Shown: piece by piece, positions 2,359 to 64,000 of the stretch
Numbering within the stretch: position 1 is the first letter of the stretch
How the letters are laid out: every line of letters begins with the position of its first letter
Source of the DNA: Sabellastarte sp. h YS-2021
Taxonomy: Eukaryota > Annelida > Polychaeta > Sabellida > Sabellidae
Length of the DNA stretch: 64,000 bases
Direction of reading: 5' to 3'
NCBI GenBank assembly: GCA_964017235.1
Contig: OZ024935.1
Coordinates: 31,289,596-31,353,595, forward strand
Translations under genes and position numbers: made by a program
Notes under the pieces: generated by a model
What the model saw: the letters and a program-made list of their open reading frames with translations, nothing else
Told to the model about the DNA's origin: nothing
Database searches by the model: none

Positions 2359-4099
2359 ATGGCCATGAAATGTAGAATTGCAGTGGCATCTGATAAAGTG
2401 GATATTGTTAAAGCTTTTCCAGGCATTTATGGAGGTTTTGACTACCTGCAATATGACTATGATTACTATATGGCTTCACCAAGATATATTTGCTATATAG
2501 GAGAAGTTGAGGGACAAATTGTAGGTGCATGTATTTTTTTAACATTGAACATTGATAGGAATCAGAATCAAAAGAGTAGAAAAATAAAACTGTTTTATTT
2601 TATTTTCTAGGCTGTGTGAAGTTAAAGTTGAGGCATTATGTACTTTTTAACTGTTAATATCAGAATAGCTCTTCTGTTCACCCTATACAACATTGGTTTT
2701 ACGTTAAAGATCACATATTCACTATAACAATTATATTTAATGTGTAATCAGATTGTATAAAAAATTATTGTATTATAATACAATGTATTTTATTTTATGT
2801 ATTTTGTTTTTAATCAATACAAACTACTCACTCAATAGCATGACAACTGCCATATTCAATTTGTCTATACAGATGGCCTACATGAGCACCAGATTGCTTG
2901 ATGACAACCAGGCATATATCATTTCCTCCGAAAGGGTGCATGTAGATTACAGAGGAAGAGGCTTCATGAAGCAGCTGGGTGTATATGCAAATGAGTATAT
3001 CAAGGCTTATCTGAGTGGACCCAGAGTATTGAGAAAGTTTTCCTACTATTCAAGTGAAGAGATACTAAAAAAGCTGCAGAGACATCCTGAAAGGAAGATT
3101 ATCCATACAACAGTAAGAACATAATGGTTGATTTTGTATTTGTAGCTAGAAGTACATAAATTAGCTTTTGGAAAATTAATGTAATTCTATTGTTGAAAAT
3201 ACTCAATTACTACAATACATCATCATAACAAGCTTTGTGGATACTCGGATTGGCAGTGCTGTTGAAAAAATAATCCAGGTATTAAAATATCATAACCTAG
3301 GGGACAAATTTGTCATTAAAAAATTAATGATATTATCCACTGTGGCATCATGAGAGTAATGGAATTATTGTGAGTGGCCCAAGTCATATCAAGTTAAAAA
3401 GTATCTAGAGAGTCATTTTTATAATTTCTTGACTTCCTTTCTTCAATCGTAATAATTATGTTACAAATTATTGGTTTATCTTTTTTTCTATTTTTGTCTT
3501 TACAGATGTCATTGGGTTACACCCTGACAATGGAAGAAATAAAGCAGTGCTTGGCTCTGCATACTCAATTTGAAAAAAATCCCCACAAAGCTCTGGACAT
3601 TTTAGAAATGCCTAACTTGACCAGTGCAGAAACAAAAGCAATGAAGACGTATTTTAGTAACTACTGCAAGGCCCATGGAAATTCACTTTGCATTTATTAT
3701 CATCCTTTTGGTGACTTCGACACCAACTGGGATGATATACTAGAATTTACCGATTGGGCAGCCACAAACAGAGAGGCCTTGAATGACAAAGACTGCCTGA
3801 CCAACCTTAAGGATATGATTCTTGTGAAATGGAGAACTTGTGAACTGGGCTTGACCTATGAAGTTGAGATTATATCAAAAGGGGATAATGGAATTGAATT
3901 TACAACTGAGAAGCTGTACACCATTTTGAAAAAAATGTGTTCAGAACAGAGGGACTTTAATGGTAAACTGTCTATTGGTATTGTCAGTGAGGAACCTTAT
4001 GCAGCGGCAGTCAATGTCACTGTAATGTCTCTCCTCGGTGATAAATATTCTGCATCACCTAACAAAATATACCATGTGCATGAAGAACTACTGGTTTGA
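2359..4099 (+). CDS. Histidine N-acetyltransferase-like (HISAT/NAT16 family) GNAT protein, three exons
   Basis: Inferred exons are 2359-2520, 2873-3112 and 3506-4099, giving about 331 residues. All junctions are phase 0, with donors GTAGGT and GTAAGA and acceptors CTATACAG and TCTTTACAG. The ATG at 2359 was chosen because the longer frame opens only at a TTG. Exon 1 carries the family-like block GIYGGFDYL. Joining exons 1 and 2 gives a continuous GNAT core ending in the acetyl-CoA loop segment DYRGRGFMKQL; the usual last small residue of the loop is Met, as I recall for relatives. Exon 3 is a long C-terminal half like that of NAT16-type proteins, which are roughly 350 residues. Such enzymes acetylate histidine or related amino acids in the cytoplasm; the substrate here is unknown. 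The gene looks intact. Family assignment is from pattern recognition. Confidence 0.68.
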
Positions 4100-4104
4100 A
4101 TAAA
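4099..4104 (+). promoter_or_regulatory. Poly(A) signal AATAAA overlapping the stop codon
   Basis: The TGA stop of the acetyltransferase-like gene is at 4097-4099, and its last A is the first base of AATAAA. If used, cleavage would fall within a few tens of bases, giving a very short 3' UTR. Use of the signal is inferred. Confidence 0.5.
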
Positions 4105-4434
4105 ACAACACAACACAGTGTACGTAATTCAGTGATATAATTAATGTAACAATGTCCCATAATTCAGTTATTATTGTAAGCGATGTACAGCCACATTTTA
4201 CCTGACAAAAGGACTGTCATACTTAATTTCACTGAAATATGCAAATTTTATATATTGACTTTGCTGGTTTACTGGCCAGTGAAATCATTACCTAATGATA
4301 AATTGATAAAATTAGAATATTATTTACTTCAAAAATCTGTTGAATTCACATTCAAGATTGAATAATTGAATTAATGTATCTTCATTTTTTGGTTATCGGT
4401 AATAAAATATATACCTTTACACCAACTCTGACCT

Positions 4435-4668
4435 GTGGGATCAGTGATGTAGTGGTTAGAGTGCTCGCTTTCAACTCTGAGGTCGCCGGTTTGAATCTCA
4501 ACCTGGGGACTTCATGTTGGAAAGTTGGTAGTCACTTGCCGATGACCGATGGTTTACAGTGCAGAATCTTGACCAACTAGTATGCACTTGTTCCTCCACC
4601 CATAAACTACCCGTCGCAATATGACCCTGGCTGTTGAACATGACGTAAAACAAAAAATAAACCCAAAT
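4435..4668 (+). mobile_element. tRNA-derived SINE with near-perfect target duplication
   Basis: The A-box-like GTAGTGGTTAGAGTGC and the B-box-like GGTTTGAATCTC are followed by the same body as other SINEs in the window, ending in GACGTAAAAC and an A-rich tail. Flanks CCAACTCTGACCT (4422-4434) and CCAACTATGACCT (4669-4681) differ at one of 13 bases and are probably the target-site duplication. Confidence 0.8.
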
Positions 4669-5043
4669 CCAACTATGACCTTTGACCCTTGGATTTTTTA
4701 TCTTTAAGGAGAAAACTTGGTGGGGCCGAGTTTGCAATAGTGAAAACGAATTTTTGGGTCACAAGTTTTACATTATGTCTCTTGTGAGAGCAAAGAAAAC
4801 AACATTGAAAGTTTAGTAAGTTTTAAGCAAAATTATGTGTTAGATTCAGATACTGAATTATATAACTATATTGAATACGATGTATTTTTTTGTAAGTAAA
4901 GGTGAATTTAAAAAGCCCATATCACCACCCATTACAATCATAATCAACATTCGGAGCCATCTGGAAGGTTCTATTTTGTGGGATATTCATATAATCATGC
5001 TTTTTATTTGTATAAGACTCCATTGTGCTCCATACCTCCAAGC

Positions 5044-6058
5044 TGTTACGGTCACGGGCAAGCACGGTAGCAATTACCGGTTGTCTTTAAGTTGTAACAG
5101 AAAAAAAAGCAAAAAGCTTAACTTAACAAATTTATTTAGCGATTAACAATAATGATTACAGTCAACTGGTATGCCCTTAACTAAGCACACTAATACAATA
5201 ACAAGATCTAGCTGACCTGACCACTGAGATTAAGAATAAGTTTATCCGCCATATCCCGCAATCTGTCTGTAATCCGTCCTGTGGTATATTCTGTGATCTG
5301 TCCAATGTCCTGTGGTCTGTCCCGTGATCTGTCCAGCGTTCACTCGCACACAGATATCTATATCCTGTGACCCGTCCCACACTCAACAACACAAAAGGTG
5401 CTTGTCCTGCTATCCTTTATATATCCAGTCACACAGAAGGTCTGTCTGGAGATTTTTAGAGAGTTAACACAATTGTACTGTCTGCTCCAAGATATGGACA
5501 ATGTCCAAAATGCAGTAAATCCACTCTCTGTTATATAACTGTACAATATCCAAAAATATCCAAAGTGCAATAAATCTGTCCAGACAATGTATCTAGTTCA
5601 CTCCAGTAAAAGTTCACAGCAACACAATTTATATTATATTCCAAAACACAATAGCTCTCCTTATAGCCAGCGAATACAAAGTTCACTTGTGGTCAGATGT
5701 ACATTCCTTATATACATTCACAGATTTCTCTGGAATTGTACAGAACCAACTCAAAAAGGCTTGAGCCATCTAGGCCAAAGGAGGAAGTTCTAGAAACTAC
5801 TGGTAATTGGGTTTCCCCAAATCTAACATAACCACTGAGGGGGGGGATTTCCCCCAGTCTGTGAACAGATCAATAAACACTAAAACACAAAAGTCAATAA
5901 CTCCCTTACTTTAAATGTCAACACACAAAAAGAACCAACAACACAATTATCTTTTATGACAATGTATAAACATAAAGCTTAAATTAAACAATGCACTAAT
6001 ATAGTGCCTAATATATGTAATATACAATGTACTAATATAGTGTCCAATATATGTAACA
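5044..6058 (-). repeat. 3' LTR of the retrotransposon
   Basis: This LTR is 1015 bp with TG..CA ends. By eye it differs from its partner by about two substitutions and a one-base change in a G run near 5880, apart from a SINE insertion in the partner. In element sense it has a TATA-like TATATAAAG at 5415-5423 and AATAAA at 5131-5136, suggesting a long U3, R between them and a short U5. Confidence 0.93.
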
Positions 6059-6069
6059 CCTCCCCCCTT
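6059..6069 (-). promoter_or_regulatory. Polypurine tract
   Basis: On the minus strand AAGGGGGGAGG directly abuts the 3' LTR, the usual place for the primer of plus-strand DNA synthesis in LTR elements. Confidence 0.8.
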
Positions 6070-6360
6070 AAAGAAAAATTTTGGAAGTCAAGGAGTTACA
6101 AAATTTTACAAGAGATTTTTACCAGGTATATATACACAGGTAATAACTTTTTACAAAACATATTTATCTAAATACAAAAGTAAAATTAGTACCATGTATA
6201 ACCTTTATAAACTTGCTAATTACAGGTATATAAATTACAATTTAAATACAGCTTCTGGACAGGGCGTATCCATGCGGACGCCATATGTTACTTTTTCAAA
6301 GTCCTGTTTATACACTGAATTCCTATCTTTAACAGTGTTTTTATTAATAGCCATCATAAG

Positions 6361-9300
6361 CTATGTTATATCTCTTTCAAAATATGGCTTTACCATAGTC
6401 ATTTCACACATGTGGTTTGAATGTCTGTTATCCCAGTTTTTAATGGTCTTTTGGAGAGTTTCTACTCTCCTTGCTACTGGGTATGACCCTAGATCTCTGG
6501 CCTGTAGTTTATTCATTTGGCCAGGTGATGACACTGAAGCCTTGCCTCCAGGATTGAAGACACGATTCTGTAATTTCTTGTCAAAAAGCATCTTCATTTT
6601 TGACTGAGAAGTTTTCAAATTTTGTTGCGCCAGCTCACAAGCCTTCTTTAACTTATTTCTGAACCTTGAGACATAATCTAACAGATTTAGGCTCTCAGTG
6701 TTCTCAGATAACCAGTTTTCCTTCAACAGCTTGAGAGGACCACGGACTGAATGGCCAAAAACCAACTCAAAGGGACTAAAGCCTAAAGACTCTTGAACAG
6801 ACTCTCTAACTGCAAACAATAATAAGCTAATGCCTTCATCCCAGTCTTCTTCATTATCTAAACAAAATGTCCTAATCATATTCTTCAAAGTGGAATGGAA
6901 CCTTTCAAGTGCACCTTGGGATTCTGGGTGATAAGCACTAGATTTGATCTGTTTGGCACCTAACTGAAATACAACCTGTTGAAATAGTCCTGACATGAAA
7001 TTTGACCCTTGATCTGACTGGATTTCTTTTGGTAAGCCAACTAGAGTAAAGAAATTAACCAGAGCTTTTGAGATTTTGGGAGCTGTTATGTTGGTCAAAG
7101 GTATGGCTTCGGGAAATCTGGTTGAAGCACACATAATTGTCAAAAGATATTGGTTTCTGGATTTAGTTTTTGGTAAGGGACCTACACAGTCAATTATCAC
7201 TTTGCTAAATGGTTCCTCAAATGCTGGAATGGGTTTGAGAGGAGCTACAGGAATTTTTTGGTTTGGCTTTCCTACCATTTGACAAATGTGACAAGTCTTG
7301 CAAAATTCTGCCACACAGTGCCGAATTTGAGGCCAATAGAAATGTTTGGTTATCTTGTTGTAAGTTTTGTTGATGCCTAAATGGCCACCCATTGGAGACT
7401 CATGGGCCAATTTCAGTATCTCACTTCGGTACATTTTTGGTACAACAATCTGGTGTACTACTGACCATTCTTCAGATGCAGGGACATTTGGTGGCCTCCA
7501 CTTTCGCATAAGTACACCATTTCTGACATAATAGCCTACAGGGACCTTATCTAGCTCTACTGGTGGCAAGACCAACTTGAATAAAGGAGCTAATTCAAGG
7601 TCATTTTCCTGCTCTGAAATCAATTTTGATTTTGAAAGCGATACATCTTTGCAGTCAATTGGGTCTTGTTTTTTAGAATCTACCCTATCCTTGGGATTAG
7701 TATCACTAAAATTCTGCACATCATGGTCATAGTTGTTCAAGAATGTATCTGACAAATCAACTAAGACATCTGTAGATTGTTTACAATCTTTTGGTTCTTC
7801 TTGGGCCTTTTTGGCCATAGCTCGAGTCACAGCACAGGAGGGAAAAATACCAGGAATAACCTCTTCTAATTTCTCAGTGCTAACCAAAGTGATCGGCTTA
7901 GAAGTAACCTTAGGATCAGCAACTACCTTTCCACCTGCAAGATCATTTCCCAACAACAAAGATACCCCTTTAATGGGTAAAGTGGGCCTGGTACCCACAA
8001 CAACAGAACCAGTAACTAAGTCTGATACTAACTTGACCTTATGCAAGGGAACGTTCACACAGCCTCCTTCAATACCTTGAGCAATGACACTCTCACCAGT
8101 AGATGTGCTTACACTCAATGGCAATACACCTTCTAAAAGTAAGGACTGAGTAGCTCCAGTGTCTCTTAATATCTTAATGGGGACCTGACTGGAACTACTT
8201 TCCAAGGATACAAAACCCTCAGACACAAAAGGTTTGAACTCTTCCCTAATAATCTCAGACTTGTCTAAACCAATACTAGACTCTGCTCTATTGGGATTTG
8301 AACGCCAGTTAGACTTGCTAGACACAAAGGCGTTGGGAGTTGCCTCCTTTTCTCTTCTCTTCTTTAAGAGCCAACAGTCAGACATAACATGTCCAGGTTT
8401 CTTACAATAATGGCACACAGGAGTAAAGGATCTGGGTTTCCTATCCTTACTCATAGTCTGATTTGATGTTTGACCCTTATCTGAACTCTTTTCTGGAGCT
8501 ACATTTTCAGATTTCTTTCCTATTTCTGGATACGACTTTTTAGCAGGGCCAAAGGACTTATTCTTGTTGAAAGTGGACTTGTGAGTTAGCGCATAATCAT
8601 CAGCATAAGCTGCTGCTTTTGCCAAATTTTCAACTTTCTGTTCATCTAGATAGGTTTTAATGTCATCACGAACACACCTTTTGAACTCTTCAATCAAAAT
8701 AACTTGCCTAAGTTTCTCAAAGTCTGTACCTACTTCCCTAGAATTACACCATCTGTCAAAGTACACTTCCTTCTCATGGGCAAATTCAACATGAGTTTGA
8801 CTTTCTTGTTTACGATAATTTCTGAATTTTTGACGATATGCTTCTGGTACCAACTCATATGCTTTCAAAATGGCATTTTTGACAGAGTTATAGTCCACAC
8901 ATTCAGAAATTGGCAAAGCTGTGTATGCCTCCTGGGCCTTTCCCCTCAAAACACTTTGCAGCAATAAAGGCCACTGGTCTATAGGCCATTTCAAATTTTG
9001 AGCTACTCTTTCAAAGTGTTGAAAGTACTTATCAACTTCTGATTCATTGAAAGGTGGTACCAGTCGCACATTTTTACCCAAATTAAATTTGGTAGCAATG
9101 GACTCTTCATGGGCAATTCTACGGGCATTGAGTTCTAAAGCTCTCATTTCTCTTTCATGTTTAAGTGCACGCTCTTCCTTTTGAGCTTCAAGCTCTTCTT
9201 TTCGCTGTTGAGCCTCAAGCTCTTCTTTTCGTTGTTGAGCTTCAAGCTCTTCTTTTCGTTGTTGAGCTTCAAGCTCTTCTTTTCATTGTTGAGCTTCAAG

Positions 9301-9651
9301 CTCTTCTTTTCGCTGTTGAGCTTCAAGCTCTTCTTTTCGTTGTTGAGCTAGAGCTTGAGTTTCAAGCTCTTTAAGTCTTAACTCTCTTTCAATTTCTAAT
9401 CGCCTGATCTCATATTGCCCAGAAGGTTCCATTGGTAGAGGCTTATACACTTCTAAACAACTATCAGGTAAAACATCTTCATCAACTAACTGTTCAACAA
9501 TAAGCCTTTTAAGTTCATGTTTACGTGTTGACCTTTTTACCTCTAACTGTAACTCTTGTGCTATCTGCATTAACATATCTTTTTTAAGAGTTTCTAGAAC
9601 TTCCATAGATGGTGACTGTACAAACTCTTTAGCACTAGCCATTTTGAGCAC
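6361..9651 (-). pseudogene. Gag-protease-integrase polyprotein ORF with one internal stop
   Basis: One reading frame runs from an ATG at 9651 to a stop at 6361 (about 1096 codons), broken only by TGA at 9283-9285. The 122-residue front has a helical region and then 10-residue E/Q/K-rich repeats (EELEAQQRKE type). The 928-residue part, numbered from the ATG at 9147, has a Gag core (about 25-190), a CCHC knuckle (C245, C248, H253, C258), an aspartic protease motif DTGATQS (329-335) with LLLGNDL, an H2C2 finger (H582, H589, C619, C622), a D-D-35-E integrase core (D653, D712, E748) and a GPY/F-like tail ending PYFERDIT. Residues between protease and the finger (about 410-530) are a charged linker, not RT. 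The later ATG at 9147 could start a shorter product. The stop probably disables full-length Gag. Confidence 0.88.
9150..9350 (-). repeat. 30-bp in-frame tandem repeat in gag
   Basis: About six to seven 30-bp units encode a charged helical 10-residue repeat rich in Glu, Gln and Lys, probably a coiled coil. One unit has CGA changed to TGA at 9283-9285, a CpG-type transition. The + strand frames at 9157-9374 are shadows of these repeats. Confidence 0.85.
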
Positions 9652-9737
9652 TGTTGACTGTAACCAATTACTAAATCAAATGGATTTTCAAAATGTTAAT
9701 TGAATGGTTGATCAAATAGTTGTAATCAAATGGTTGG

Positions 9738-9755
9738 ATCCCGGACGAGCCCCCA
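9738..9755 (-). promoter_or_regulatory. Primer binding site complementary to tRNA-Pro
   Basis: On the minus strand TGGGGGCTCGTCCGGGAT lies 7 bases inside the 5' LTR. It is the well-known 18-base site complementary to the 3' end of tRNA-Pro used by some vertebrate retroviruses. Position and TGG start fit a functional site. Confidence 0.9.
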
Positions 9756-9762
9756 ATTTTCC

Positions 9763-10948
9763 TGTTACGGTCACGGGCAAGCACGGTAGCAATTACCGGT
9801 TGTCTTTAAGTTGTAACAGAAAAAAAAGCAAAAAGCTTAACTTAACAAATTTATTTAGCGATTAACAATAATGATTACAGTCAACTGGTATGCCCTTAAC
9901 TAAGCACACTAATACAATAACAAGATCTAGCTGACCTGACCACTGAGATTAAGAATAAGTTTATCCGCCGTATCCCGCAATCTGTCTGTAATCCGTCCTG
10001 TGGTATATTCTGTGATCTGTCCAATGTCCTGTGGTCTGTCCCGTGATCTGTCCAGCGTTCACTCGCACACAGATATCTATATCCTGTGACCCGTCCCACA
10101 CTCAACAACACAAAAGGTGCTTGTCCTGCTATCCTTTATATATCCAGTCACACAGAAGGTCTGTCTGGAGATTTTTAGAGAGTTAACACAATTGTACTGT
10201 CTGCTCCAAGATATGGACAATGTCCAAAATGCAGTAAATCCACTCTCTGTTATATAACTGTACAATATCCAAAAATATCCAAAGTGCAATAAATCTGTCC
10301 AGACAATGTATCTAGTTCACTCCAGTAAAAGTTCACAGCAACACAAGTTATATTATATTCCAAAACACAATAGCTCTCCTTATAGCCAGCGAATACAAAG
10401 TTCACTTGTGGTCAGATGTACATTCCTTATATACATTCACAGATTTCTCTGGAATTGTACAGAACCAACTCAAAAAGGCTTGAGCCATCTAGGCCAAAGG
10501 AGGAAGTTCTAGAAACTACTGGTAATTGGGTTTCCCCAAATCTAACATAACCACTGAGGGGGGGATTTCCCCCAGTCTGTGAACAGATCAATAAACACTA
10601 AAGGTCAAAGGTCAAAGTTGGGGTTTTACGTCCCGTTCAACAGCCAGGGTCATATTGGGACAGGTCCTCAGCATTGCCACTTGTGGGACTCGAACCCACA
10701 GAGGTGACAGCCTATGATTAGATGCCAAACTTGCTAACCACTAGGCCACTGAGGACCTCTCAATAAACACTAAAACACAAAAGTCAATAACTCCCTTACT
10801 TTAAATGTCAACACACAAAAAGAACCAACAACACAATTATCTTTTATGACAATGTATAAACATAAAGCTTAAATTAAACAATGCACTAATATAGTGCCTA
10901 ATATATGTAATATACAATGTACTAATATAGTGTCCAATATATGTAACA
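9763..10948 (-). repeat. 5' LTR of the retrotransposon, interrupted by a SINE
   Basis: Same sequence as 5044-6058 except that a 157-bp SINE and a 15-bp target duplication were added at 10588-10774. Without them the LTR is 1014 bp. The insertion lies in the U3 part, upstream of the TATA-like motif in element sense. Confidence 0.93.
10603..10759 (-). mobile_element. SINE nested in the 5' LTR, 15-bp target duplication
   Basis: TCAATAAACACTAAA is present at 10588-10602 and again at 10760-10774, while the other LTR has a single copy with no insert. On the minus strand the insert has an A-box-like TGGCCTAGTGGTTAG, a B-box GGTTCGAGTCCC, the GACGTAAAACCCCAAC tail block and a short CTTTGAC repeat at the 3' end. 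Confidence 0.95.
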
Positions 10949-25793: not shown

Positions 25794-27036
25794 GGGCCCG
25801 TATTCACTAACATTCTTATACTTAGAAAAATAATTTTTCTTAGAATTAGAAAATTTTCTTAGAATTAGAAAAAAATTGTATTCACAAAGCAATTCTTAGT
25901 TAAGAATTATTTCTAAGAATAAGAATTTTCTTAGTTAAGAATAGTACACAGAAACATGTGCATGCTTATAGTTTTTGATGTCACATGATCAGTCATGTGA
26001 TATATTTACACCTTTATTGTTTAAAATGGAGTCAGAATTAGGTGCCGGATTCACAAAAGGTCTTAATCTTAGCCTTTTCTTAGGCGTAGCCCAGTCTTAA
26101 ATACAAGATTTTTTTTCAGCTAGGAATTTTCATAAATAGGTATTCATAAAGCAGGTTTCAGCTTGAACAAAAGTCATCAACTTAGGACCAAGACTGATTT
26201 TTTTCATGTAACCAAATTTATCGAACATAAATCAGAAGGCAGTGTACATATTAACTATAAAATAAGTATATCCCACACAGGTAAAAGTATCACTATTAAC
26301 TGGTTAACTCATCTCCTGAGTCCTGACAGCTATAAAATGAATGCATTAACCTATCCATTTCCATCACTCTTATATAAATACTTCTTAAATTCATACAATT
26401 TCAGAATAAGACATTTCAAATCAGATTTACACTTCAAAAGGAAAACAAAATTACAGTGTTGCAGTAACTATAAGCACTGATGTACACTGTAAAACTTGTC
26501 CACTTACTGTTGACACTTGGATCAGAAAGGGATAAGTTTTGCAGTTGAGAACCTTCTAACCTCTTAAAAACATACAAAAAACTAATAGAGGGGTGTGTAA
26601 GTATTTTTAACTTAATTCTAGCCATTTGAAATTTTGAAGTGGGGAAAGTATACATGGCAGCCATATTTAAAACCAGTCAACAAGATAGCATAAATCATTC
26701 ACTTCAGTCTTTATCTGTAAATATAAAGTTCTTGTAAATAATTAATGCAGATCAGAAAAAAAAAACAAACACTGGATATGTCTGGTCATAGAAAAAAATG
26801 TCTATTTGCATGCAATTGATAAAAAATATGAAATATGTCACCTTTTTCTTAACTTAAGTAAGGTCTTGATCATTCTTAGATTTGAGCATCATTCTTAGAA
26901 AAAATTCTAAGAATAAGAAAAAATTCTAAGAATAAGAATTTAGTGAATACCAAAAATACTTATTCTTAGAATTTTCTAAGAAAAATTCAAAGAAAATTCT
27001 TATTCTAAGTATAAGAATGTTAGTGAATATGGGCCC
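25794..27036. mobile_element. 1.24-kb inverted-repeat (MITE-like) element with GGGCCC ends
   Basis: The left end GGGCCCGTATTCACTAAC and following ATTCTTATACTTAGAA are matched, inverted, by the right end at about 27000-27036. Inside, CTTAGAATTAGAAAATT-type words continue the inverted symmetry for a few hundred bases on each side. A second start, GGATTCACAAAAGGTCTTAA (about 26048), suggests a related element nested inside. No target duplication was found and no transposase frame is present. Confidence 0.7.
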
Positions 27037-27348
27037 AGGTATGCATTTTCCCGCCAGCTGAACTCCTAAATGCACATTTTCTAGAATATTATACAAGAAA
27101 CCTGTTGTTTAATATACTGAGACAATGTCCAAATGTCCCACTCCGTTTAACTTATTCTGTTAGTTTGATGCACTACAATCACCAAGTATTTTAATAAATG
27201 ACAAAATCCAATATTGGAACAGTTAATAAATGCCATCAACATACTCAAACAATTAATACATCTTCGAGTGGACTAAATACGAAAGAGTATTAGCGCTACC
27301 ATAGTGTTTCAAAAACCATCATATTATTTTTGTTGCAAACTTTCTACT

Positions 27349-27745
27349 CTATAACTTCGCCAACAACAATGAAAACTTCGCTAACAACAATGAGAACTTC
27401 GCCAACAACAATAAGAACTTCACCAACAACAATGAGAAATTCACCAATAACAATGTAATCTTCACCAACAATGAAAACTTCACCAACAATGAAAACTCCA
27501 CCAACAATGAAAACTTCACCAATAATAATGAAAAATTCGGCAACAACAATGTAAACTTCACCAACAATAATGAGAACTTCACTAACAGTAATGAAAACTT
27601 CACCAACAACAATGAGAACTTCACCAACAATGAAAACTCCACCAACAATGAAAACTTCGCCAACAATAATGAAAACTTCACCAACAACAATGTAAACTTC
27701 ACCAACAACAATAAAAACTTCACCAATAATAAGAACTTCAATTTC
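27349..27745. repeat. 18/21-bp minisatellite, left terminal array
   Basis: Units of the AACTTCACCAACAATGAA (18 bp) and AACTTCACCAACAACAATGAA-like (21 bp) type. Both lengths are multiples of three, so long false reading frames arise. Confidence 0.95.
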
Positions 27746-28936
27746 TAATTTTGGGAGCACTGTAGGCCAAACTAAGGCAATTATGCCTTTTAGATTGGAT
27801 GGTACAAATGGGGAGATTTCATGCATTACACCTTTAGACTGGCTTTCATGGGTATTGTAGGCTGGTGGTCTGATTTTAAGGCAAGGATAGAAATATTTTG
27901 GGCAACCAGTTTACAGATTTTACATACCAGTAGTGCCATTTTAAAAACACAGCATTACTGAATGGGTAACCAGTGCATGGCCTTTCTTTTGGGTTAATAT
28001 GAGATACTTTGTGGCTTTACAGTCAATTGTAGCAAGACTATTCTGAATCTACTGTAACTTGTGTAGACCAGCAGCAGAGAAACTCTTGATCAAAGATTTA
28101 CAGTAGTCAAGCGTACTTCCTATACAAGCATTGGCAGCCATTAGAACAGCATCATGTGTTAGGTACTATCAAATTCATCTGAGATTCCTCATTTGAATAA
28201 AGCACAAATTACAGATATTTTACAGAAAATAGCCCCACCAACCAGTTTAACACCCATACAAGCCTTGAAGAAAATAAACCAGTTTTGCTACTTTTGCCAA
28301 ACTGTCCACTAGTTTTGAACAGATTTTTTCCCAACTGATCGGGAGCCCTCTAGGACAAGCCCTCAAGTTAACCAACAAGCCATAACTTTCACTGACACAC
28401 CCTAAACGAAAGCTGGCGAGACTGTAGAAAATGACTGGAGTGGCAGCTAGAAGAGCCAGTTTGTGCAGCAATGCAACAAATTCTCATAACTCTGGCAAGA
28501 CTATTCTCAATTCACTGCTAGTTCCAGAGGTATGATCTTAAAAGTCTCTTAAAGAGGCAATAGTCGAGTCTGCTGCTGACCAAAGCATTTGCAGCTATGA
28601 TAGTAGAATCCTGTAGAAAGTGTTTTAATGCATGCCTAAAACCTGTACCCTTTATCATTTAATTCAATTCAACTTTTATAGTGCTTAATCTCCATCTCAG
28701 GACAGACTCTATGGTACTTCGTAGTCCATTATCTTTTTGTCAGATATCTTTTAAACTGACAATCTTAAGTTTGGTTAGCCCTAGTTGGGTTAGACCTATA
28801 ACCTTTATCATCATTTAAATTTACAATCTTAAGTTGTGGGAGCCCAACATAAATTGGCTACCAACTTAGTATCCTAACTTAAACTATAGCCATTCATAAG
28901 ATGAACTGTCTCTAAAATTGGACACATAATGATTCA
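27746..28936 (-). mobile_element. Decayed LINE 3' segments, copy A
   Basis: The minus strand has relics of the C-terminal part of a CR1/L2-like LINE protein followed by its 3' end (AGTGCTATAAAAGTTGAATT-like, near 28680). Two head-to-tail pieces seem present (about 27950-28160 and 28410-28600). The segment aligns directly with 30865-31965. It ends at the TTGGACACATAATGATTCA boundary where an array begins. Confidence 0.65.
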
Positions 28937-30300
28937 GTGTAAACTTCGGCAACAACAATGTAAACTTAATCAATAATGAAAACTTCGCCAATAATGAAAA
29001 CTCCATCAACAACAATGAAAGCTTCACCGATAACAATGTAAACTTTACCAATAATGTAAATTTCACCAATAACGAAAACTTCAACAACAATGAAAACTTC
29101 ACCAACAATGATGTAAACTTCGCCAACAACAATGTAAACTTCATCAACAACAATGAAAACGTCGCCAACAACAATGAAAACTTCACCAATAATGAAAACT
29201 TCACCAATAATGAAAATTTCGCCAACAACAATGTAAACTTCATCAACAACAATGAAAACTTCGCCAATAATGAAAACTTCGCCAACAACAATGAAAACTT
29301 CACCAACAACAATGAAAACTTCACCAATAATGAAAACTTCACCAACAATGAAAACTTCACCAATAGTGAAAACTTCACCAACAATGAAAACTTCACCAAT
29401 AATAAAAACTTCACCAATAATGAAAACTTCGCCAACAACAATGTAAACTTAATCAATAATGAAAACTTCGCCAAAAATGAAAACTCCATCAACAACAATG
29501 AAAGCTTCACCGATAACAATGTAAACTTTACCAATAATGTAAATTTCACCAATAATGAAAACTTCAACAACAATGAAAACTTCACCAACAATGATGTAAA
29601 CTTCGCCAACAACAATGTAAACTTCATCAACAACAATGAAAACGTCGCCAACAACAATGAAAACTTCACCAATAATGAAAACTTCACCAATAATGAAAAT
29701 TTTGCCAATAATGAAAACTTCAACAACAATGAAAACTTCACCAACAATGATGTAAACTTCGCCAACAACAATGTAAACTTCATCAACAACAATGAAAACG
29801 TCGCCAACAACAATGAAAACTTCACCAATAATGAAAACTTCACCAATAATGAAAATTTCGCCAACAACAATGTAAACTTCATCAACAACAATGAAAACTT
29901 CGCCAATAATAAAAACTTCGCCAACAACAATGAAAACTCTACCAACAACAATGAAAACTTCGCCAACAATACTGTAAACTTCACCAATAATGAAATATTT
30001 ACCAACAACAATAAGAAGTTTGCCAACAATGCTATAAACTTTGCCAATAATGAAAACTTCACCAACAATGAAAACTTCACCAATAATGAAAACTTCGCCA
30101 ACAACAATGCAAACTTCGCCAACAACAATGAAAACTCTACCAACAATGAAAACTCCACCAACAAAGAAAACTTTACCAACAACAATGAGAACTTCACCAA
30201 CACTAATGAAAACTTCGCCAACAACAATGTAAACTTCACCAACAACAATGAAAACTTCGCCAATAATGATAAAAATTTTGCCAAAAATAATAAAAACTAA
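28937..30300. repeat. 18/21-bp minisatellite, main array
   Basis: About 1.36 kb of AACTTC(A/G)CCAA(C/T)AATGAA-type units. Higher-order blocks of about 150-480 bp are repeated nearly exactly (compare 28947-29270 with 29440-29720). The minus-strand 466-residue frame with endless (V/A)KFSLL(L) is an artefact of unit lengths divisible by three. Confidence 0.95.
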
Positions 30301-30501
30301 TCAGTAATGGGGGTGTTCCACTGGTCCCAATCAACTCTGTCTTTGAGTGTGTTTCCAAACTTGGGGGTCAGGACCATTTTTTTGAATGAAAGATTTCTGT
30401 TACTTAAAAGCCAGGTTGATTCCAATTCCAATTTTACTTTTATAGCGCTTAATCTCTGTCATAATGACATATTCTAAGGTGCAGCATCCAACATGGTAAC
30501 A

Positions 30502-30739
30502 CGGGGCCACGGTGGCAGAGTGGTAACACTCTCGCCTCCCACCTCTGAGGCCGGGGTTCGATCCCCGGCACGGCCTCAAGTGGGAAAGCTGGTAGTTACT
30601 TGCCATTGGTCGGCAGTTTAGAGGTACAGAACCCTAACAAGCTCTATGTACTGGTTTCCTCTGCCCTTCCAACTACCCGTCGTGATATGACCTTACAGTG
30701 TTGAAAGCGACGTAAAACCCCAAATAAATAAATAAATAA
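30502..30739 (+). mobile_element. tRNA-derived SINE, well preserved, 14-bp target duplication
   Basis: CCAACATGGTAACA occurs at 30488-30501 and 30740-30753. The insert has an A-box-like GGTGGCAGAGTGGTAAC, a clear B box GGTTCGATCCC (about 30556-30566), the family middle, GACGTAAAACCCC and an (AAAT)n tail. This is the best SINE copy in the window and serves as the reference for the others. Confidence 0.95.
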
Positions 30740-30864
30740 CCAACATGGTAACAGCCAAAATCATAAACCTAAACCGTAGCAAGTTTCAGCATCAGAGAGG
30801 TAGGATTTCAACCTCTTTCTAAAAGAGGAAAGTGGAAGCAGAAGCCCTAACATCACCAGGCAAT

Positions 30865-31965
30865 TAATTCCTAATTTTGGGAGCATTGTAGGCCAAAGTA
30901 AGGCCATGATGCCTCTTAGACTGGATAGTATAAACTGGGTAATTTCACACATTACACCTATAGACTGGCTTCCATTGGTATTGTTGGCTGATGGTCTTAT
31001 TTTAAGGTATGGATAGAAATATTTTGGGCAGCCATTTTTAAGAATTTATACACCAGTAGTGCCTTTTTAAAAACAGCATTGCTGAATGGGCAACCAGTGC
31101 ATGGTCTTTCTTATGGGGGTAACATGAAGATACTTTGTGGCTTCACAGACAATTGTAGCCCGGCTGTTCTGAATGTACTGTAACTTGCGTAGACTAGCAG
31201 AGAAACTCCCTGATAAAGCATTACAGTAGTCAAACCTACTTCCTATGAAAGCATTGGCAGCCATTAGATGAGCATCATGTGTAAGGTACTATCAAATTCA
31301 TCTGTCCACAGGTTTGGAAAGAATTTGTTCCCAACTTGCCAGGAACCCTCTATCACAAACCCTAAAGTTAACCAACAAGCCATAACTTTTACCGACACAC
31401 CCTAAACAAAAGCTGGCCAGACTTTAGAAAATGACTGGAGTGGCAGCTAGAAGAACCAACAAATTTGCAACAAATTGTCAGAACCCTGGCAAGAATATTC
31501 TCAAATCACTGCTAGTTCCAGAGGTATGCTCTTAAAAGTCTCTTAAAGACAGCATTGCAATAGTCGAGTCTGCTGCTGACCAAAGCATTTGCAGCCATGA
31601 TAGAAGAATCCTGTAAAAATGTTTTTAAGCCTGTGTAAGACCTATAACCTTTATCATTTAATTAAATTTAACTTTTATAGCACTTAATCTGCATCTCAGG
31701 ACAGACTAAAAGGCAGTTCAATTTTGCCATATTCAATCTTGTAGTGCATTAGATTTTTTGCCAGATATCATTTAAATTGACAATCATAAGTTTAGTTAGC
31801 CCTAGTTGTGTTAGACCTATAACCTTTATCAGCATTAAAATTTACAATCTTAAGTTGAGTTAGGCCTGCCTAAATTTTTCAACCAACTTAGTATCCTAAC
31901 TTGAACTATAGCTATTCATAAGATGAACTGTCTCTAAAATTGGACACATAATGATTCAGTGCAAA
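30865..31965 (-). mobile_element. Decayed LINE 3' segments, copy B
   Basis: Aligns along its length with copy A. The minus frame at 31067-31264 contains SRFDYCNAL and MHWLPIQQ, the region after the RT palm in CR1/L2-like proteins. It ends at the same TTGGACACATAATGATTCA border. Confidence 0.7.
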
Positions 31966-31989
31966 CTTTCACAACAACAATGCTCTTAA

Positions 31990-32600
31990 AAGCAATATTA
32001 TTTATAATATGGCAAATATTTCATTATTGGTGAAGTTTAAAGTATTGTTGGCGAAGTTTTCATTGTTGGCGAAGTTCTTATTATTGGTGAAGTTTTCATT
32101 GTTGTTGGTGAAGTTTTCATTGTTGTTGGTGAAGTTTTCATTATTGGTAAAGTTTTCATTATTGGTTAAGTTTACATTGTTGTTGGTGAAGTTTACATTG
32201 TTGTTGGTGAAGTTTACATTGTTGTTGGTGAAGTTTACATTGTTGTTGGCGAAGTTTTCATTATTGGTGAAGTTTTCATTGTTGTTGGTGAAGTTTTCAT
32301 TATTGGTGAAGTTTTCATTGTTGTTGGCGAAGTTTTCATTGTTGTTGGTGAAGTTTACATTGTTGGTGAATTTTTCATTGTTGTTGGTGAAGTTTACATT
32401 GTTGTTGGCGAAGATTACATTGTTGTTGGCGAAATTTTCATTATTGATGAAGTTTTCATTGTTGGTAAAGTTTTCATTGTTGTTGGCGAAGTTTTCATTG
32501 TTGTTGGTGAAGCTTGCATTGTTGCTGGCGAAATTTTTATTATTGTTGAAGTTTTCATTGTTGTTTGCGAAGTTTACAATGAATCATAATGTGCCCAGTT
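31990..32600. repeat. 18/21-bp minisatellite, inverted array
   Basis: Same unit as the array at 28937-30300 but on the other strand (TTCATTGTTGTTGGTGAAG). The + strand 207-residue frame is an artefact. It lies between copy B and the inverted copy C, so 31700-33000 is a large imperfect palindrome with the array in its loop. Confidence 0.93.
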
Positions 32601-33060
32601 TTAGAGTCAGGTCATTTCATGAATGGCTATAGTTTAAGTTAGGAATACTAAGTAGGTAGGCAATTTTATGCTGGGCTAACTCAACTTAAAATTGTAAATT
32701 TAAGTGATGATAAAGGTTATAGGTCTAACCCAACTAGGGCTATCCAAACTTAAGATTGTCAATTTAAATGATATCTGACAAAAAGATATTGGACTACGAG
32801 ATTGAATATGACAATAATGAAGTACCTTAGAGTCTGTCTTGATATTGAGACTAAGCACTATAAAAGTTTAACCGAATAAAATGATAAAGGTTATAGGTCT
32901 TAGGCAGGCTTGAAAACACTTTTTACAGGATTCTGCTATAATGGCTGCAAATGCTTTGGTCCGCAGCAGACTCGACTATTGCAATGCTCAAACCATTGAA
33001 ACTTACAGTGCATCAAGAATAGTCTTGCCAGGGTTATAAAAATAGTACCAAGTTTGTGCA
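32601..33060 (+). mobile_element. Decayed LINE 3' segment, inverted copy C
   Basis: Reverse-complement match to 28490-28936 and 31500-31965. Includes GCAGACTCGACTATTGCAAT (SRLDYCN in LINE proteins) near 32970 and the AGCACTATAAAAGTT 3' end at about 32854. Confidence 0.7.
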
Positions 33061-33239
33061 TTGCTGCATTAAAACTAGTGAAATAACAAATAAATGTTAT
33101 TGATTGGTGCTACAGAATCATTATGCCCTCACACTAGTCCCAGATTTTAATTTTTTATTGTAAGTATGTAAGTATGGAAAGATAAAGTATTAAAACAAGA
33201 CAATTCAACAGCAATTGTCATAAGAGAAAGCTGTAACCA

Positions 33240-33895
33240 ATGCCCCTACTAAGTAACAACTTCGGATGCCTTACGGTGTCCGAGATATAGCCTGGACAAT
33301 ATTTTATAGGTCAAGGTCACTATGGAAAGGTCAAAGATCAAATAAAGGTCACACCATGATGTTGCACACCTACAACCCAAAACCATTGTCCCTACCAAGT
33401 ATCAACTTCCTACACCTTACGGTTTCCCAGATATAGCCCGGACAAGATTTTGTAGGTCAAGGTCACTATGCCAAGGCTAAAGGTCATATCAAGGTCACAC
33501 CATGATGCTGCACACCTGCAACCCCCAAACAATGTCCCTACCAAGAATCAACTTCCTATACCTTACGGCTTCTGAGATATTAGCTGGGACAAGATTTTAT
33601 AGGTCAAGGTCACTATGGCAAGGTCAAAGGTCAAATTAAGGTCACACCATGACATTGCACACCTACACCCCCAACTAATGTCCCTACCAAGTATCAACTT
33701 CCTACACCCTATGGTTTCTGAGATATAGCCTGGACAAGATTTTAAAGGTCAAGGTCACTATGGTAAGGTCAAAGGTCAAATCAAGGTCACACCATGACGT
33801 TGCACACTTACACCCCCCAACCAATGATCCTACCAAGTATCAACTTCCTACACCTTATAGTTTCTGAGAAACATCCCGGACAAACTTTTCCCTTT
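33240..33895 (+). repeat. Tandem repeat of about 145 bp, roughly 4.5 copies
   Basis: Each unit runs through TTCTGAGATATAGCC(C/T)GGACAAG, GGTCAAGGTCACTATGG, GGTCACACCATGA and AATGTCCCTACCAAGTATCA. Unit starts near 33270, 33415, 33558, 33705 and 33850. It ends at TTTGACCACCCACCCACCC. Non-coding. Confidence 0.9.
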
Positions 33896-34164
33896 GACCA
33901 CCCACCCACCCGCCCATCAGGACACCATGGGTGAAAACAATACCCCGACAGCCATTAAGGGCTGTGGGTTAAACAATTGCTACATAAAGGAAATAAATCA
34001 GGGTTCATTCCATGTTTTTTTAATGTACCGCCTTTTACTGTTCCCCCCATTCATAAAATCAGAGTCCATTCCATGTTTTAAAATGTACCGCTTGTTAATG
34101 TTACACCCACATTTCCATTCCATGTTTTATAATGTACCGCTTGATACTATTTTTAGAAACACTT

Positions 34165-34340
34165 TTCATCATTGTTGGCAAAGTTTTCATTATTGGCGAA
34201 GTTTATGTATTGTTGTTGAAGTTTGCATTATTGGCGAAGTTTACATATTGTTGTTGAAGTTTGCATTATTGGCGAAGTTTCCAGTATTGGTGAAGTTTAC
34301 ATATTGTTGTTGAAGTTTGCATTATTGGTGAAGTTTGCTG
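34165..34340. repeat. Short 18/21-bp-type array, right terminal
   Basis: GAAGTTTGCATTATTGGC-type units, inverted relative to the left terminal array. Contains a local 42-bp-like period (GTTGTTGAAGTTTGCATTATT repeated three times). Confidence 0.85.
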
Positions 34341-34414
34341 TTTCCATTCACGGAAAATAATATGATTAAACAAACATAACACTATGGTGGCGCCAATACT
34401 CTTTCGTAACTAAA

Positions 34415-49534: not shown

Positions 49535-50500
49535 TGCATAAGAATGCACAGAAACTGCAAAACTTCAATTTTGTGAAAAGGACGCTTCCTTAAAACTGCA
49601 AATTTTCGCTTTCTAAAAAGGACGCGTCCTTTTCACAGAAACTGCAAATCTTCACTTCTCTGAAAAGGACGCGTCCTTTTCACAGAAACTGCAAATCTTC
49701 ACTTTTCTGAAAAGGATGCGTCCTTTTCACAGAAACTGCAAATCCTCATTTTTCTGAAAAGTATGCATCCTTTTCACAGAAATGGCAAATCTTTACTTTT
49801 TTTAAAAGGACATGTCCTTTTCACAGAAACTGCAAATCTTCACTTTTCTGAAAAGGACGTTAATTTCCCTTTCACAGAAACTTCAAATCTTCACTTCTCT
49901 GAAAAGAACGCTTCCTTTTCACAGAAATGGCAAATCCTCACTTTTCTGAAAAGGAGGCATCCTTTTCACAGAAACTGCAAATCTTTACTTCTCTGAAAAG
50001 GATGTGTCCTTTTCACAGAAACTGCAAATCTTCACTTCTCTGAAAAGGACACGTCCTTTTCACAGAAATGGCAAATCTTTACTTTTCTGAAAAGGACGCA
50101 TCCTTTTCACAGAAACTGCAAATCTTTACTTCTCTGAAAAGGACGCGTCCTTTTCACAGAAACTGCAAATCTTCACTTTTCTGAAAAGGACACATCCTTT
50201 TCACAAAAACTACAAATCTCCACTTTTCTGAAAAGGACGCTTCCTTTTCACAGAAACTACAAATCTCCACTTTTCTGAAAAGGACGTGTCCTTTTCACAG
50301 AAATGGCAAATCCTCACTTTTCTCAAAAGGATGCGTCCTTTTCATAGAAATTGCAAATCCTCACTTTTGAAACAAGGACGCGTCCTTTTCACAGAAATGG
50401 CATATCTTCATTTTTTTTGAAAAGGAGGTGTCATTTTTACTGGGCCTGTAAAACTTCACTTTTCTGAAAAGGACCCGTCACTTTCAAAGAAACTGCAAGT
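49535..50500. repeat. 47-bp minisatellite, about 20 copies, palindrome in each unit
   Basis: Unit: TCCTTTTCACAGAAACTGCA, then AATCTTCACTTTTCTGAAAA, then GGACGCG. The junction of neighbouring units makes the perfect 18-bp palindrome AAAAGGACGCGTCCTTTT, intact in several units and varied in others. Non-coding; the short frame at 49763-49996 is an artefact. Confidence 0.95.
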
Positions 50501-50699
50501 CATTACTTTTCTAAAAATCCTTTTTTTCTAAAAGGTAATATACTTTATTTAGATAATGTTTCCTCTGTTAACAATTAACTAATATTGTTAATTTAACTAG
50601 AGTTATGCCGCTCGCTTTATTGCTACCCGGCAGTGTATCCCCGAACATAGCAAACCTGTAGAAGCAATAATAAAAGACATAGAGGCTGAAGATTCCTGA

Positions 50700-51740
50700 A
50701 GTTATAAGCACTTTTTGCCTGACCTCACTTGACCTTGAAGGAGGGGCACAAGGTCAAATTTAACCACATCAGAAGATTCCAAGCCCATGATTTCCTATAA
50801 GTTGGTTTCACATTGCAAACTTCTAGGACCAATAATAAGCGAGTTAGAAGTACTTTTAAGTTTGGCTATACTCTTTTGACCTTGAAGGAGAGACTCAAAG
50901 TCAAATCTGACCACACCAGAAGATTCCCAGCTCATAATTTCCTACAGGTTGGTTTCACACTTCAAACCTCTAGGACCAATAATAAGCGAGTTATAAGCAC
51001 TTTTAAGTTTGGCTATGTTCTTTTGACCTTGAAGGAGAGACTCAAGGTCAAATCTGACCACACCAGAAGATTCCCAGCTCATAATTTCCTACAGGTTGGT
51101 TTCACATTTCAAACCTCTAGGACCAATAATAAGCGAGTTATAAGCACTTTTAAGTTTGGCTATGCTATTTTGACTTTGAAGGAGAGGCACAAGGTGAAAT
51201 CTGACCACACCAGAAAATTCCCAGGCAATTATTTCCTTTTGTTTGTTTTCACATTGCAAACCTCTATGACCAATAATAAGCGAGTTATAAGCAATTTAAA
51301 GTTTGTGTATTGTCATTTGACTTTGAAGGAAGGGCCCAATGTCAAATTTGACCACATCAGAAAATTCCTAGGCGACTTTTTCCTTTTGGTTGTTTTCACA
51401 TTGCAAAACTCTAGGACCAGTAATAAGCGAATTATAAGCAATTTTAAATTTGCCTATCCTCGTTTGACCTTGAAGGAGGGGCCCAAGGTCAAATCTGACC
51501 ACATCAGAAGATTCCTAGCCCATCATTTCCTTTTGGTTGTTTTGCACATTGTAAACCTCTAGGACCAATAAAAAGCGAGTTTTAAGCACCTTTTAATTTG
51601 GCTATCCTTGTTTAACTTTGAAGGAGGGGGCCCAAGGTGAAATCTGACAGCACCAAAAGATTCCTAGCTCATGATTTCCAATAGATTGGTTTCACATTTC
51701 AAACCCCTAGGACCAATAATAAGTGAGTTATAAGCACTTT
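50700..51740 (+). repeat. 147-bp satellite array, about seven copies
   Basis: GACCAATAATAAGCGAGTTA recurs at 50827, 50973, 51121, 51268, 51415, 51563 and 51711, giving units of 146-148 bp. Each unit has TTTGACCTTGAAGGAGRGGC and AGAAGATTCC. Because 147 is divisible by three, a false 249-residue frame spans 50813-51562. Confidence 0.95.
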
Positions 51741-52500
51741 TGCAATAGTTTTCAAGATACAACTGATTTACTCAAGTGAGAATCTCAAAGTAGCTATTAC
51801 TCGGCTATGCAATGAGCTACAGGTCTGCAATTTTACTATGTTATAGCTTACCCAAACGTAGATGAATAACATATTCTAAATAAAATTTTCTAAATGCAAT
51901 AGTTTTCAAGTTACAGCTGATGTAATCAACAGAGACAACCTCAAAGTGGTTATTGCTCAGCTATGCAATGACCTACAGGTCTGCAACTTTACTACGTTAT
52001 AGCTGACCCAAAAGCTAAGGTTAGCAACATATTTAACGAAAATACTCTAAATGCAGTAGTTTTCCAGTTACAACTGATTTTCTCAACAGTGAGAGCCTGA
52101 ATGTAGCTATTGCTCGGCTATGCCATGAATTACAGGTCTGCAATTTCACTATGTTACAGCTGACCCAAAAGTAGGTGAACAACATATTAAAACAAAATAC
52201 TCTAAATGCAATACTTTTCAAGTTACAACTGATTTACTCAACAGTGAGAACCAGAGATTAGCTGTTACACAGCTATACAATGAGCTACAGGTCTGCAATT
52301 TTACTATGTTATAGCTGACCCAAAAGTACATGAAAAACATATTTAACAAAATACTCTAATGCAACAGTTTTGAAGATAGAAGCAATTTACTCAACAGTGA
52401 TAACCTCAAGGTAGCTATTACTCGACTATGCAGTGAGCTAAAAATAGCTGAATAACATATTTATTCAAAATTCTCTAAATGCAATAGTTTTTGAGTTACA
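51741..52500 (+). repeat. 155-bp satellite array, about five copies
   Basis: Units with GCAATAGTTTTCAAGTTACA, TGATTTACTCAACAGTGAGA, GAGCTACAGGTCTGCAATTT and TATAGCTGACCCAAAAGTA. Starts near 51741, 51896, 52053, 52208, 52361 and a short one at 52480. Directly follows the 147-bp array. Confidence 0.93.
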
Positions 52501-57149: not shown

Positions 57150-57590
57150 AGGTTTGGCTATGCTGGTTTGTATAATAACCAATAATACAACCAATAATAA
57201 GTGAGTTATAAACACTTTTAAGTTTGGCTATACTCGTTTGACCTTGAAGGAGGGGCCCAAAGTCATAATAAGCGAGTTATAAGCACTTTTAAGTTTGACT
57301 ATACTCGTTTGACTTTGAAGGAGAGGGCCAAGATCAAATCTGACCACACCAGAAGATTCCCCGCCCATGATTTCCTACATGTTGGTTTACCATCCCAAAC
57401 CTCTAGGACCAATAATGAGCGAGTTATAAGCATTTTTCAGTTTGGCTATCCTCGTTTGACCTTGAAGGAGAGGTCCAAGGTCAAATCTGACCACACCAAA
57501 AGATTTCCAGCCCATGGTTTCCATGTTGGTATACCATCCCAAACCTCTAGGACCAATAATAAGCGAGTTCAAGGCTTCATCTTAGCAAAA
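57150..57590 (+). repeat. 147-bp satellite, about three copies
   Basis: Same unit as 50700-51740, with GACCAATAATRAGCGAGTTA and GACCTTGAAGGAGAGG. The first copies near 57170-57300 are shortened. The 96-residue frame at 57309-57599 is an artefact. Confidence 0.9.
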
Positions 57591-63619: not shown

Positions 63620-64000
63620 CAGTAAATCATCGATTGACCTTGAAGGAGGGGCCCAAGGTCAAAGCTAACATCAGAAGATTCCCAGCCCAAGATTTCGTAT
63701 GAGTTGGTTTTGTACTGTAAACCCCTAGGATCAATAATAAGCAAGTTATAAGCACTTTTAAGTTTGGCTATCCTCGTTTGACCTTGAAGGAGGGGCCCAA
63801 GGTCAAATCTGACCACACCAAAACATTCCCAGCTCATGATTTCCTATAGGTTGGTTTGCCATCCCAAACCTCTAGGACCAATAATAAGCGAGCTATAAAC
63901 AATTTTAAGTTTGGTTATCCTTGTATGACCTTGAAGGAGGGGCCCAAGGTCAAATCCGACCACACCAGAAGATTCCCAGCCCATGATTTCCTGTATGTTG
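63620..64000 (+). repeat. 147-bp satellite, third locus, runs off the window
   Basis: Same unit as at 50.7 and 57.2 kb (TTGACCTTGAAGGAGGGGCC, CAATAATAAGC). About two and a half units are visible and the array continues past 64000. Confidence 0.92.

Follow-up and report, generated by a model that had tools for sequence, protein, structure and literature searches.

Does the 7.1-kb segment at 27278..34408 of the stretch analyzed here form a single transposable unit, and if so, what kind of transposase moves it? The stretch, called the window below, comprises 64 kb of a Sabellastarte genome (C11:31289596-31353595) and was compared with the whole 1.786 Gb assembly. A sequence-only reading had proposed one transposable unit of foldback architecture, based on matching inverted ends, a 6-bp duplication of ACTAAA and opposed arrays of 18/21-bp units. 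These features were borne out by our analysis. The segment was inserted as a unit with a 6-bp duplication, and its ends recur across the genome as inward-facing pairs. It is probably one copy of a non-autonomous family of foldback DNA transposons for which a transposase of the IS3EU/GingerRoot superfamily acts in trans.

The left terminal inverted repeat of 31 bp (27278..27308, plus strand) begins with the family start TACGAAAGAGTATTRGCGCYACCA and agrees at 29 of 31 positions with the reverse complement of the right one (34378..34408, minus strand). No third copy of this repeat was present in the window at up to 7 mismatches. The two copies of the 6-bp target-site duplication (TSD) ACTAAA are located at 27272..27277 and 34409..34414. 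Four arrays of 18/21-bp units lie between the ends, two in forward orientation (outer left, 27353..27740; inner left, 28941..30298) facing two in the opposite, minus-strand orientation (inner right, 32019..32575; outer right, 34169..34338). The long inverted arms with opposed tandem repeats that define a foldback are therefore present in the window element itself.

Copies were searched with both sides of the element. For the left 123 bases the best 40 of 205 candidate copies were scored, and for the right 109 bases the best 40 of 77. With up to 3 mismatches allowed, a 28-base end pattern matched the genome 189 times, compared with none for the reversed-pattern control; the pattern had no match in viral contigs. 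Among the 189 are the 71 exact end matches of a second family described below, which is 3 mismatches away. At up to 2 mismatches 93 ends belonged to the window's family, a count that omits 6 listed places with 3 mismatches as well as C5:30123141, which is part of a second-family copy (L038). Sixty of these ends fell into 30 inward-facing pairs on 13 contigs, with a spacing of 1,964-18,552 bp. Outward-facing pairs did not occur among the 93 ends, and same-direction neighbours were limited to two pairs at one place on C14.

Twenty loci were fetched at 10 kb, 12 of which contained a right end; together with the window these are the 13 complete copies referred to below. The right end of one of the 12 (L028) was diverged, with 9 mismatches in 31 positions. 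No right end was within reach in the remaining 8 loci. According to the coordinates, five of them (L016, L022, L023, L025 and L027) have their partner further out, and for L011, L018 and L026 no right end was listed. The termini read TACGAAAG..CTTTCGTA (TA..TA) in both families, with point changes in some copies; in L028 and L031 the terminal bases of one end are changed.

Target-site duplications were tabulated for 23 elements: the window copy, the 12 fetched loci, seven more of the same family (L029, L030, L031 and L034-L037) and three of the second family (L032, L033 and L038). The right end of L031 was set 3 bases past the pattern match. A perfect 6-bp duplication was present in 15 of the 23, and 5 of 6 positions agreed in four more (L015, L028, L031, L035). 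For the window's family alone the figures were 12 perfect and four at 5/6 among 20 elements. When flanks were mispaired as a control (n=506), none was perfect and 7 had at most one mismatch. The search for other insertions with 6-bp duplications, as suggested by the sequence-only reading, was thus successful, and the possibility that the two ends never occur as paired termini elsewhere did not hold. Dispersed copies with target-site duplications are a further mark of foldback transposons.

An empty site was found for another copy, L017. This element sits in a short tandem duplication, and the adjoining unit represents the site with a single GTGTGC; compared with the filled flanks it differs by 2 bases in a GT run and at a few single bases. 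Together with the 30 inward pairs and the 6-bp duplications, it supports the earlier view of the 7.1 kb as one transposable unit of foldback architecture. For the window copy no empty site was found in this assembly: the joined flanks matched nothing but the element's own two sides, at 100%, and the insertion site was single-copy in this search. To the left of the element AT-rich TTCTTAGAAT-type repeats are located at 25813-25877 and 26897-26938, and part of the left flank matches 25794-25847 in inverted orientation (91%).

The space between the arrays is composite. It starts with module A of type 1 (27741..28940), which holds two degenerate partial pieces of reverse transcriptase from long interspersed nuclear elements (LINEs), with the coding sense on the minus strand. 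Module A of type 2 with a leader (30299..31982, minus strand) lies in direct orientation to type 1 and is split by an insertion resembling a short interspersed nuclear element (SINE; 30477..30742, plus strand). In the right arm, self-comparison of the window revealed a partial module A in inverted orientation (32583..33057, plus strand), so that the inverted arms extend beyond the arrays. This is followed by segment x1 (33058..33234), about 4.4 units of a 146-bp satellite (33235..33889) and segment x2 (33890..34162), which had matches in 10, 11 and, at least partially, all 13 of the 13 complete copies, respectively. No RNA or tRNA features were detected in the element at the thresholds applied. 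The arrays were also considered as genes, given long open frames in several frames and on both strands; this was rejected, since such frames are expected where unit lengths are multiples of three.

Mapping of the copies onto segments of the window element placed module A in all 13 complete copies and showed the order of modules to be preserved. The longer reverse transcriptase matches of module A shared 34-48% protein identity with LINEs from the window and from L023. The two types of module A are 14-18% apart. Both were found in the window and in L024. For a further 13 copies the type was read from a single module; a second direct stretch of module A, beyond the one typed, is present in L019 and L023. 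The shorter forms could have arisen by internal deletion from a two-module form. Within types, module A differed by 1-8%, by 1-2% among L013, L017 and L027 and by 3% among the window copy, L009 and L010. Since the closest copies differ by only 1-3% in this module, the family was active recently.

The interior had been described as having gathered LINE, SINE and satellite DNA. This holds for the SINE, which is a later arrival in the lineage of the window copy. Its site was uninterrupted in 6 of the 8 copies compared (L009, L010, L013, L016, L017 and L024), including L024 as the closest of them; L014 and L015 matched on only one side, and none of the 8 carried a SINE at this site. Of the 13 complete copies, 8 had a match to a SINE at some position, in one or the other orientation. 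The LINE-derived module and the satellite, in contrast, are parts of the family: they recur in most of the complete copies, and the composite therefore moves as a unit.

As module mapping alone gives no direction, the orientation of the arrays was scanned with seeds (first family, six; second family, three) that were allowed up to 4 mismatches. In each of the 20 window-family elements read at both ends, the leading array block was forward and the final one reverse. The left outer array ranged from ~220 to 1,350 bp in length over 21 copies, which corresponds to the variable arms of foldbacks. Some copies had like arms on both sides. L030 consists of two right arms, 97-100% identical in each block of 100 columns across 1.1 kb, with a perfect CCAATC duplication on its flanks; L029 is also of the right-right type, more diverged and without a duplication. 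Left ends on both sides were found in L031 (duplication 5/6) and L034 (no duplication). In L027 a ~2.0-kb block of the right arm is repeated in tandem with 99% identity (element positions 3518-9655), possibly a satellite in the making. Based on these like-armed copies and the tandem block of L027, the foldback arms look exchangeable as well as expandable.

A second family begins with the same 24 bp as the window's family. Its ends were represented by the 71 exact places of TACGAAAGAGTATTAGCGCCACCAGTGG in the genome. Nowhere in the genome were the exact first 20 bases, TACGAAAGAGTATTRGCGCC, followed by C, G or T; an A or C directly after the 24-bp start occurred at two places. Four copies were read (L032, L033, L038 and L042; the last one after the TSD table and outside its 23 elements); in ascending order of size they measure 303, 1,732, 1,865 and 3,476 bp. 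The 6-bp duplication is perfect in every one of them (GATATC on both sides in L042), and three carry opposed outer arrays of 21-bp units. Between the families, the consensus units match at 15-17 of 21 positions, which was equalled by 2-67 of 20,000 shuffles; five unrelated window units of similar period match at only 9-11 positions. The units compared were selected 21-bp rows of the repeat finder, one from the window and two each from L034 and L042, and one of the five control units was trimmed from 22 to 21 bases. Earlier seeds chosen by hand had agreed at 14 of 21 positions (81 of 20,000 shuffles). The simplest reading of these unit sequences is that both families go back to a common ancestor with arrays, which may have been kept for use by one transposase.

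Which superfamily is involved has to be judged from the ends and the duplication. Kinship with Drosophila FB elements, to which the architecture had been compared, is not supported. FB elements have arms of short tandem repeats, a variable loop and foldback behaviour, with 9-bp duplications and their own repeat units; here no 9-bp duplication was found in the 13 elements tested at that length. A duplication of exactly 6 bp together with TA..TA ends agrees with IS3EU/GingerRoot. Polintons/Mavericks combine a 6-bp duplication with AG..CT ends, unlike the TA..TA ends found here. In the P superfamily the duplication is 7 or 8 bp, which does not agree with the 6 bp of this family. Galileo of Drosophila, which belongs to that superfamily, is nevertheless similar in its long inverted arms with internal repeats, in its structurally dynamic copies and in the extra transposase-binding sites reported for its arms. 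It differs in that a P-type transposase is known.

In complete IS3EU families TA..TA ends are constant and the duplication is usually 6 bp; GingerRoot elements also make 6-bp duplications, and their ends are mostly TA..TA (PMC10045372). For IS3EU elements of rust fungi, 6-bp duplications, ends of more than 30 bp and the start TAYGG were described (PMC12730594). The window's family resembles these in the TA..TA ends, the TAY start, the 6-bp duplication and the inverted ends longer than 30 bp. Foldback arms with 18/21-bp arrays and modules of LINE and satellite origin are absent from the available portions of the IS3EU/GingerRoot descriptions, and IS3EU-labelled satellites are on record in the Pacific oyster (PMC8268682). 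Going by these end and duplication features, the transposase driving the family is most likely of the IS3EU/GingerRoot type. In architecture a close parallel may be drawn to Tetris of Drosophila virilis, a non-autonomous element with inverted arms, internal tandem repeats and no transposase found. It has its ends in common with the smaller DAIBAM, and its arm repeats amplify into satellite-like arrays (PMC4079207). However, Tetris has 220-bp repeats and 8-10-bp duplications and was placed in Mutator, as compared with 18/21-bp units and 6 bp in the window's family. Among the titles and abstract openings listed in searches of the open full-text literature, with subscription journals and Repbase outside their scope, we found no IS3EU-type foldback and no foldback in a mollusc.

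Several results weigh against this assignment or against single parts of it. It was made from end letters and duplication length, and the fifth base of TACGA..TCGTA differs from the TAYGG of rust-fungus IS3EU. Four elements (L010, L029, L034 and L037) lack a duplication. In L033, the 303-bp copy, array units run in one direction only, and the order of array blocks, ++-- for the majority of first-family copies, is +--+- in L042. A derivation of the array unit from the terminal repeat was tried and rejected; the best match between the two was not significant (p 0.09), and it is for this reason that we only infer binding of both by the same protein. An autonomous copy, which the sequence-only reading had suggested to look for, did not turn up among the fetched copies. 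No transposase frame was recognised in the fetched copies of either family, where open reading frames (ORFs) were read above cut-offs of 150, 90, 110, 130 and 60 residues in turn. Among 10 ORFs from five interrupted copies and L018, Pfam gave no transposase: four matched reverse transcriptase, one NADAR and five nothing. Finally, none of the integrase-family matches compared was near a listed end. This comparison covered 24 of the best 66 of 5,540 candidates, on 7 contigs, and all 24 were more than 40 kb from any listed end place. The three best integrase-family loci (L039-L041) had no window-family ends within the 7.2-7.5 kb read.

Further observations were made in the course of this search. 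Several long copies without a near right end carry other mobile elements, which may be DIRS-like; ORFs with reverse-transcriptase matches are contained in L011, L016, L022 and L025. In L018, a 277-aa open frame with a NADAR-domain match (3896-4726) lies downstream of a family left end without a listed right end. L039, L040 and L041 appear to be one repeated element, ~98-99% identical between the loci, encoding an integrase-like protein followed by a domain that looks to be of the OTU type.

Among other explanations, a minisatellite-rich palindrome that formed when DNA was inverted and duplicated locally, its ends and TSD matching by chance, would be in line with the low-complexity arrays and palindromic arms, which allow a region to rearrange, and with the local tandem amplification in L027. 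It is refuted by the 30 inward pairs on 13 contigs, the 15 of 23 perfect duplications versus 0 of 506, the empty site of L017 and the window flanks, which match only the sides of the element; we regard it as practically excluded. The same can be said of a pearl-like Helitron/Helentron. Such elements have been reported in oysters as carriers of short satellite arrays, and the ~146-bp satellite is carried here just as oyster Helentrons carry tandem repeats, but the inverted ends and the 6-bp duplications refute this origin. Helitrons are not known to produce a target duplication.

The superfamily leaves more room for doubt. Membership in hAT (as hAT6, with 6-bp duplications) or in a superfamily yet to be described is improbable, even though no transposase was found in the copies read to decide the matter. 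The start TACGA seems unlike the usual hAT start, which counts against hAT. There are hAT families with 5-, 6- and 7-bp duplications (PMC12730594), but TA..TA ends are the constant feature of complete IS3EU families (PMC10045372). We consider it just as unlikely that the element is a Mutator-superfamily foldback with an unusually short 6-bp duplication. Tetris was placed in Mutator, and so, with exceptions, most foldbacks seem to be (PMC4079207), and for IS256/MuDR together a range of 4-10 bp was given (PMC10045372). Here the 8-10-bp duplication given for Tetris, taken as the mark of Mutator elements (MULEs), was not found. Every perfect duplication was 6 bp long, and lengths of 7-10 bp, like those of 3-5 bp, never gave a match in any of the 13 elements tested at other lengths; the TA..TA ends and the terminal repeats of more than 30 bp also fit the IS3EU descriptions.

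Under the preferred assignment to IS3EU/GingerRoot, the transposase would be supplied in trans from elsewhere in the genome. It would recognise the TACGAAAG ends, with the 21-bp units probably serving it as additional binding sites, and the element would be excised and reinserted with a 6-bp stagger, that is by cut and paste. The opposed arrays could pair within a strand and between arms. Replication slippage, template switching, gene conversion and unequal exchange might then change array lengths, swap arms and amplify blocks; such processes would explain why the centre varies and how part of an arm was amplified in tandem in L027.

A wider proposal can be made only tentatively, and we give it slightly less than an even chance. 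It states that an IS3EU-type transposase supports foldbacks, that the 21-bp units are iterated binding sites kept in two otherwise different families, that arms are interchangeable, and that the system spreads LINE-derived and satellite DNA and thereby seeds tandem arrays. If true, a further transposase superfamily would support foldbacks beside Mutator and P. The 6-bp duplications and TA..TA ends suggest that the foldback architecture arose again on an IS3EU-type system. This is of interest as chromosome inversions and the origin of satellite DNA have both been linked to foldbacks, for which the transposase is often not identified. Two families with common ends and a related 21-bp unit would make the role of arm repeats as binding sites directly testable, and the copies with swapped arms may serve as a record of how foldback arms form.

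Apart from the foldback element, the window contains a young long terminal repeat (LTR) element at 5043-10948. Its repeats are located at 5043-5897/9762-10615 (99.2% identity) and 5870-6058/10760-10948 (100%), and minus-strand ORFs lie between them. A frame of 973 aa had Pfam matches to SCAN, H2C2 and the integrase core. Since a match to reverse transcriptase was missing in this frame, the element looks like a gag-integrase element without reverse transcriptase. A 27-bp tandem repeat within the frame of the LTR element (9181-9349) encodes a repeated EELEAQQRK. Further downstream, a 47-bp array of ~21 copies (49547-50517) and an adjoining 147-bp satellite (50729-51741) were found, and similar consensus units are present at 57265-57569 and 63626-64000.

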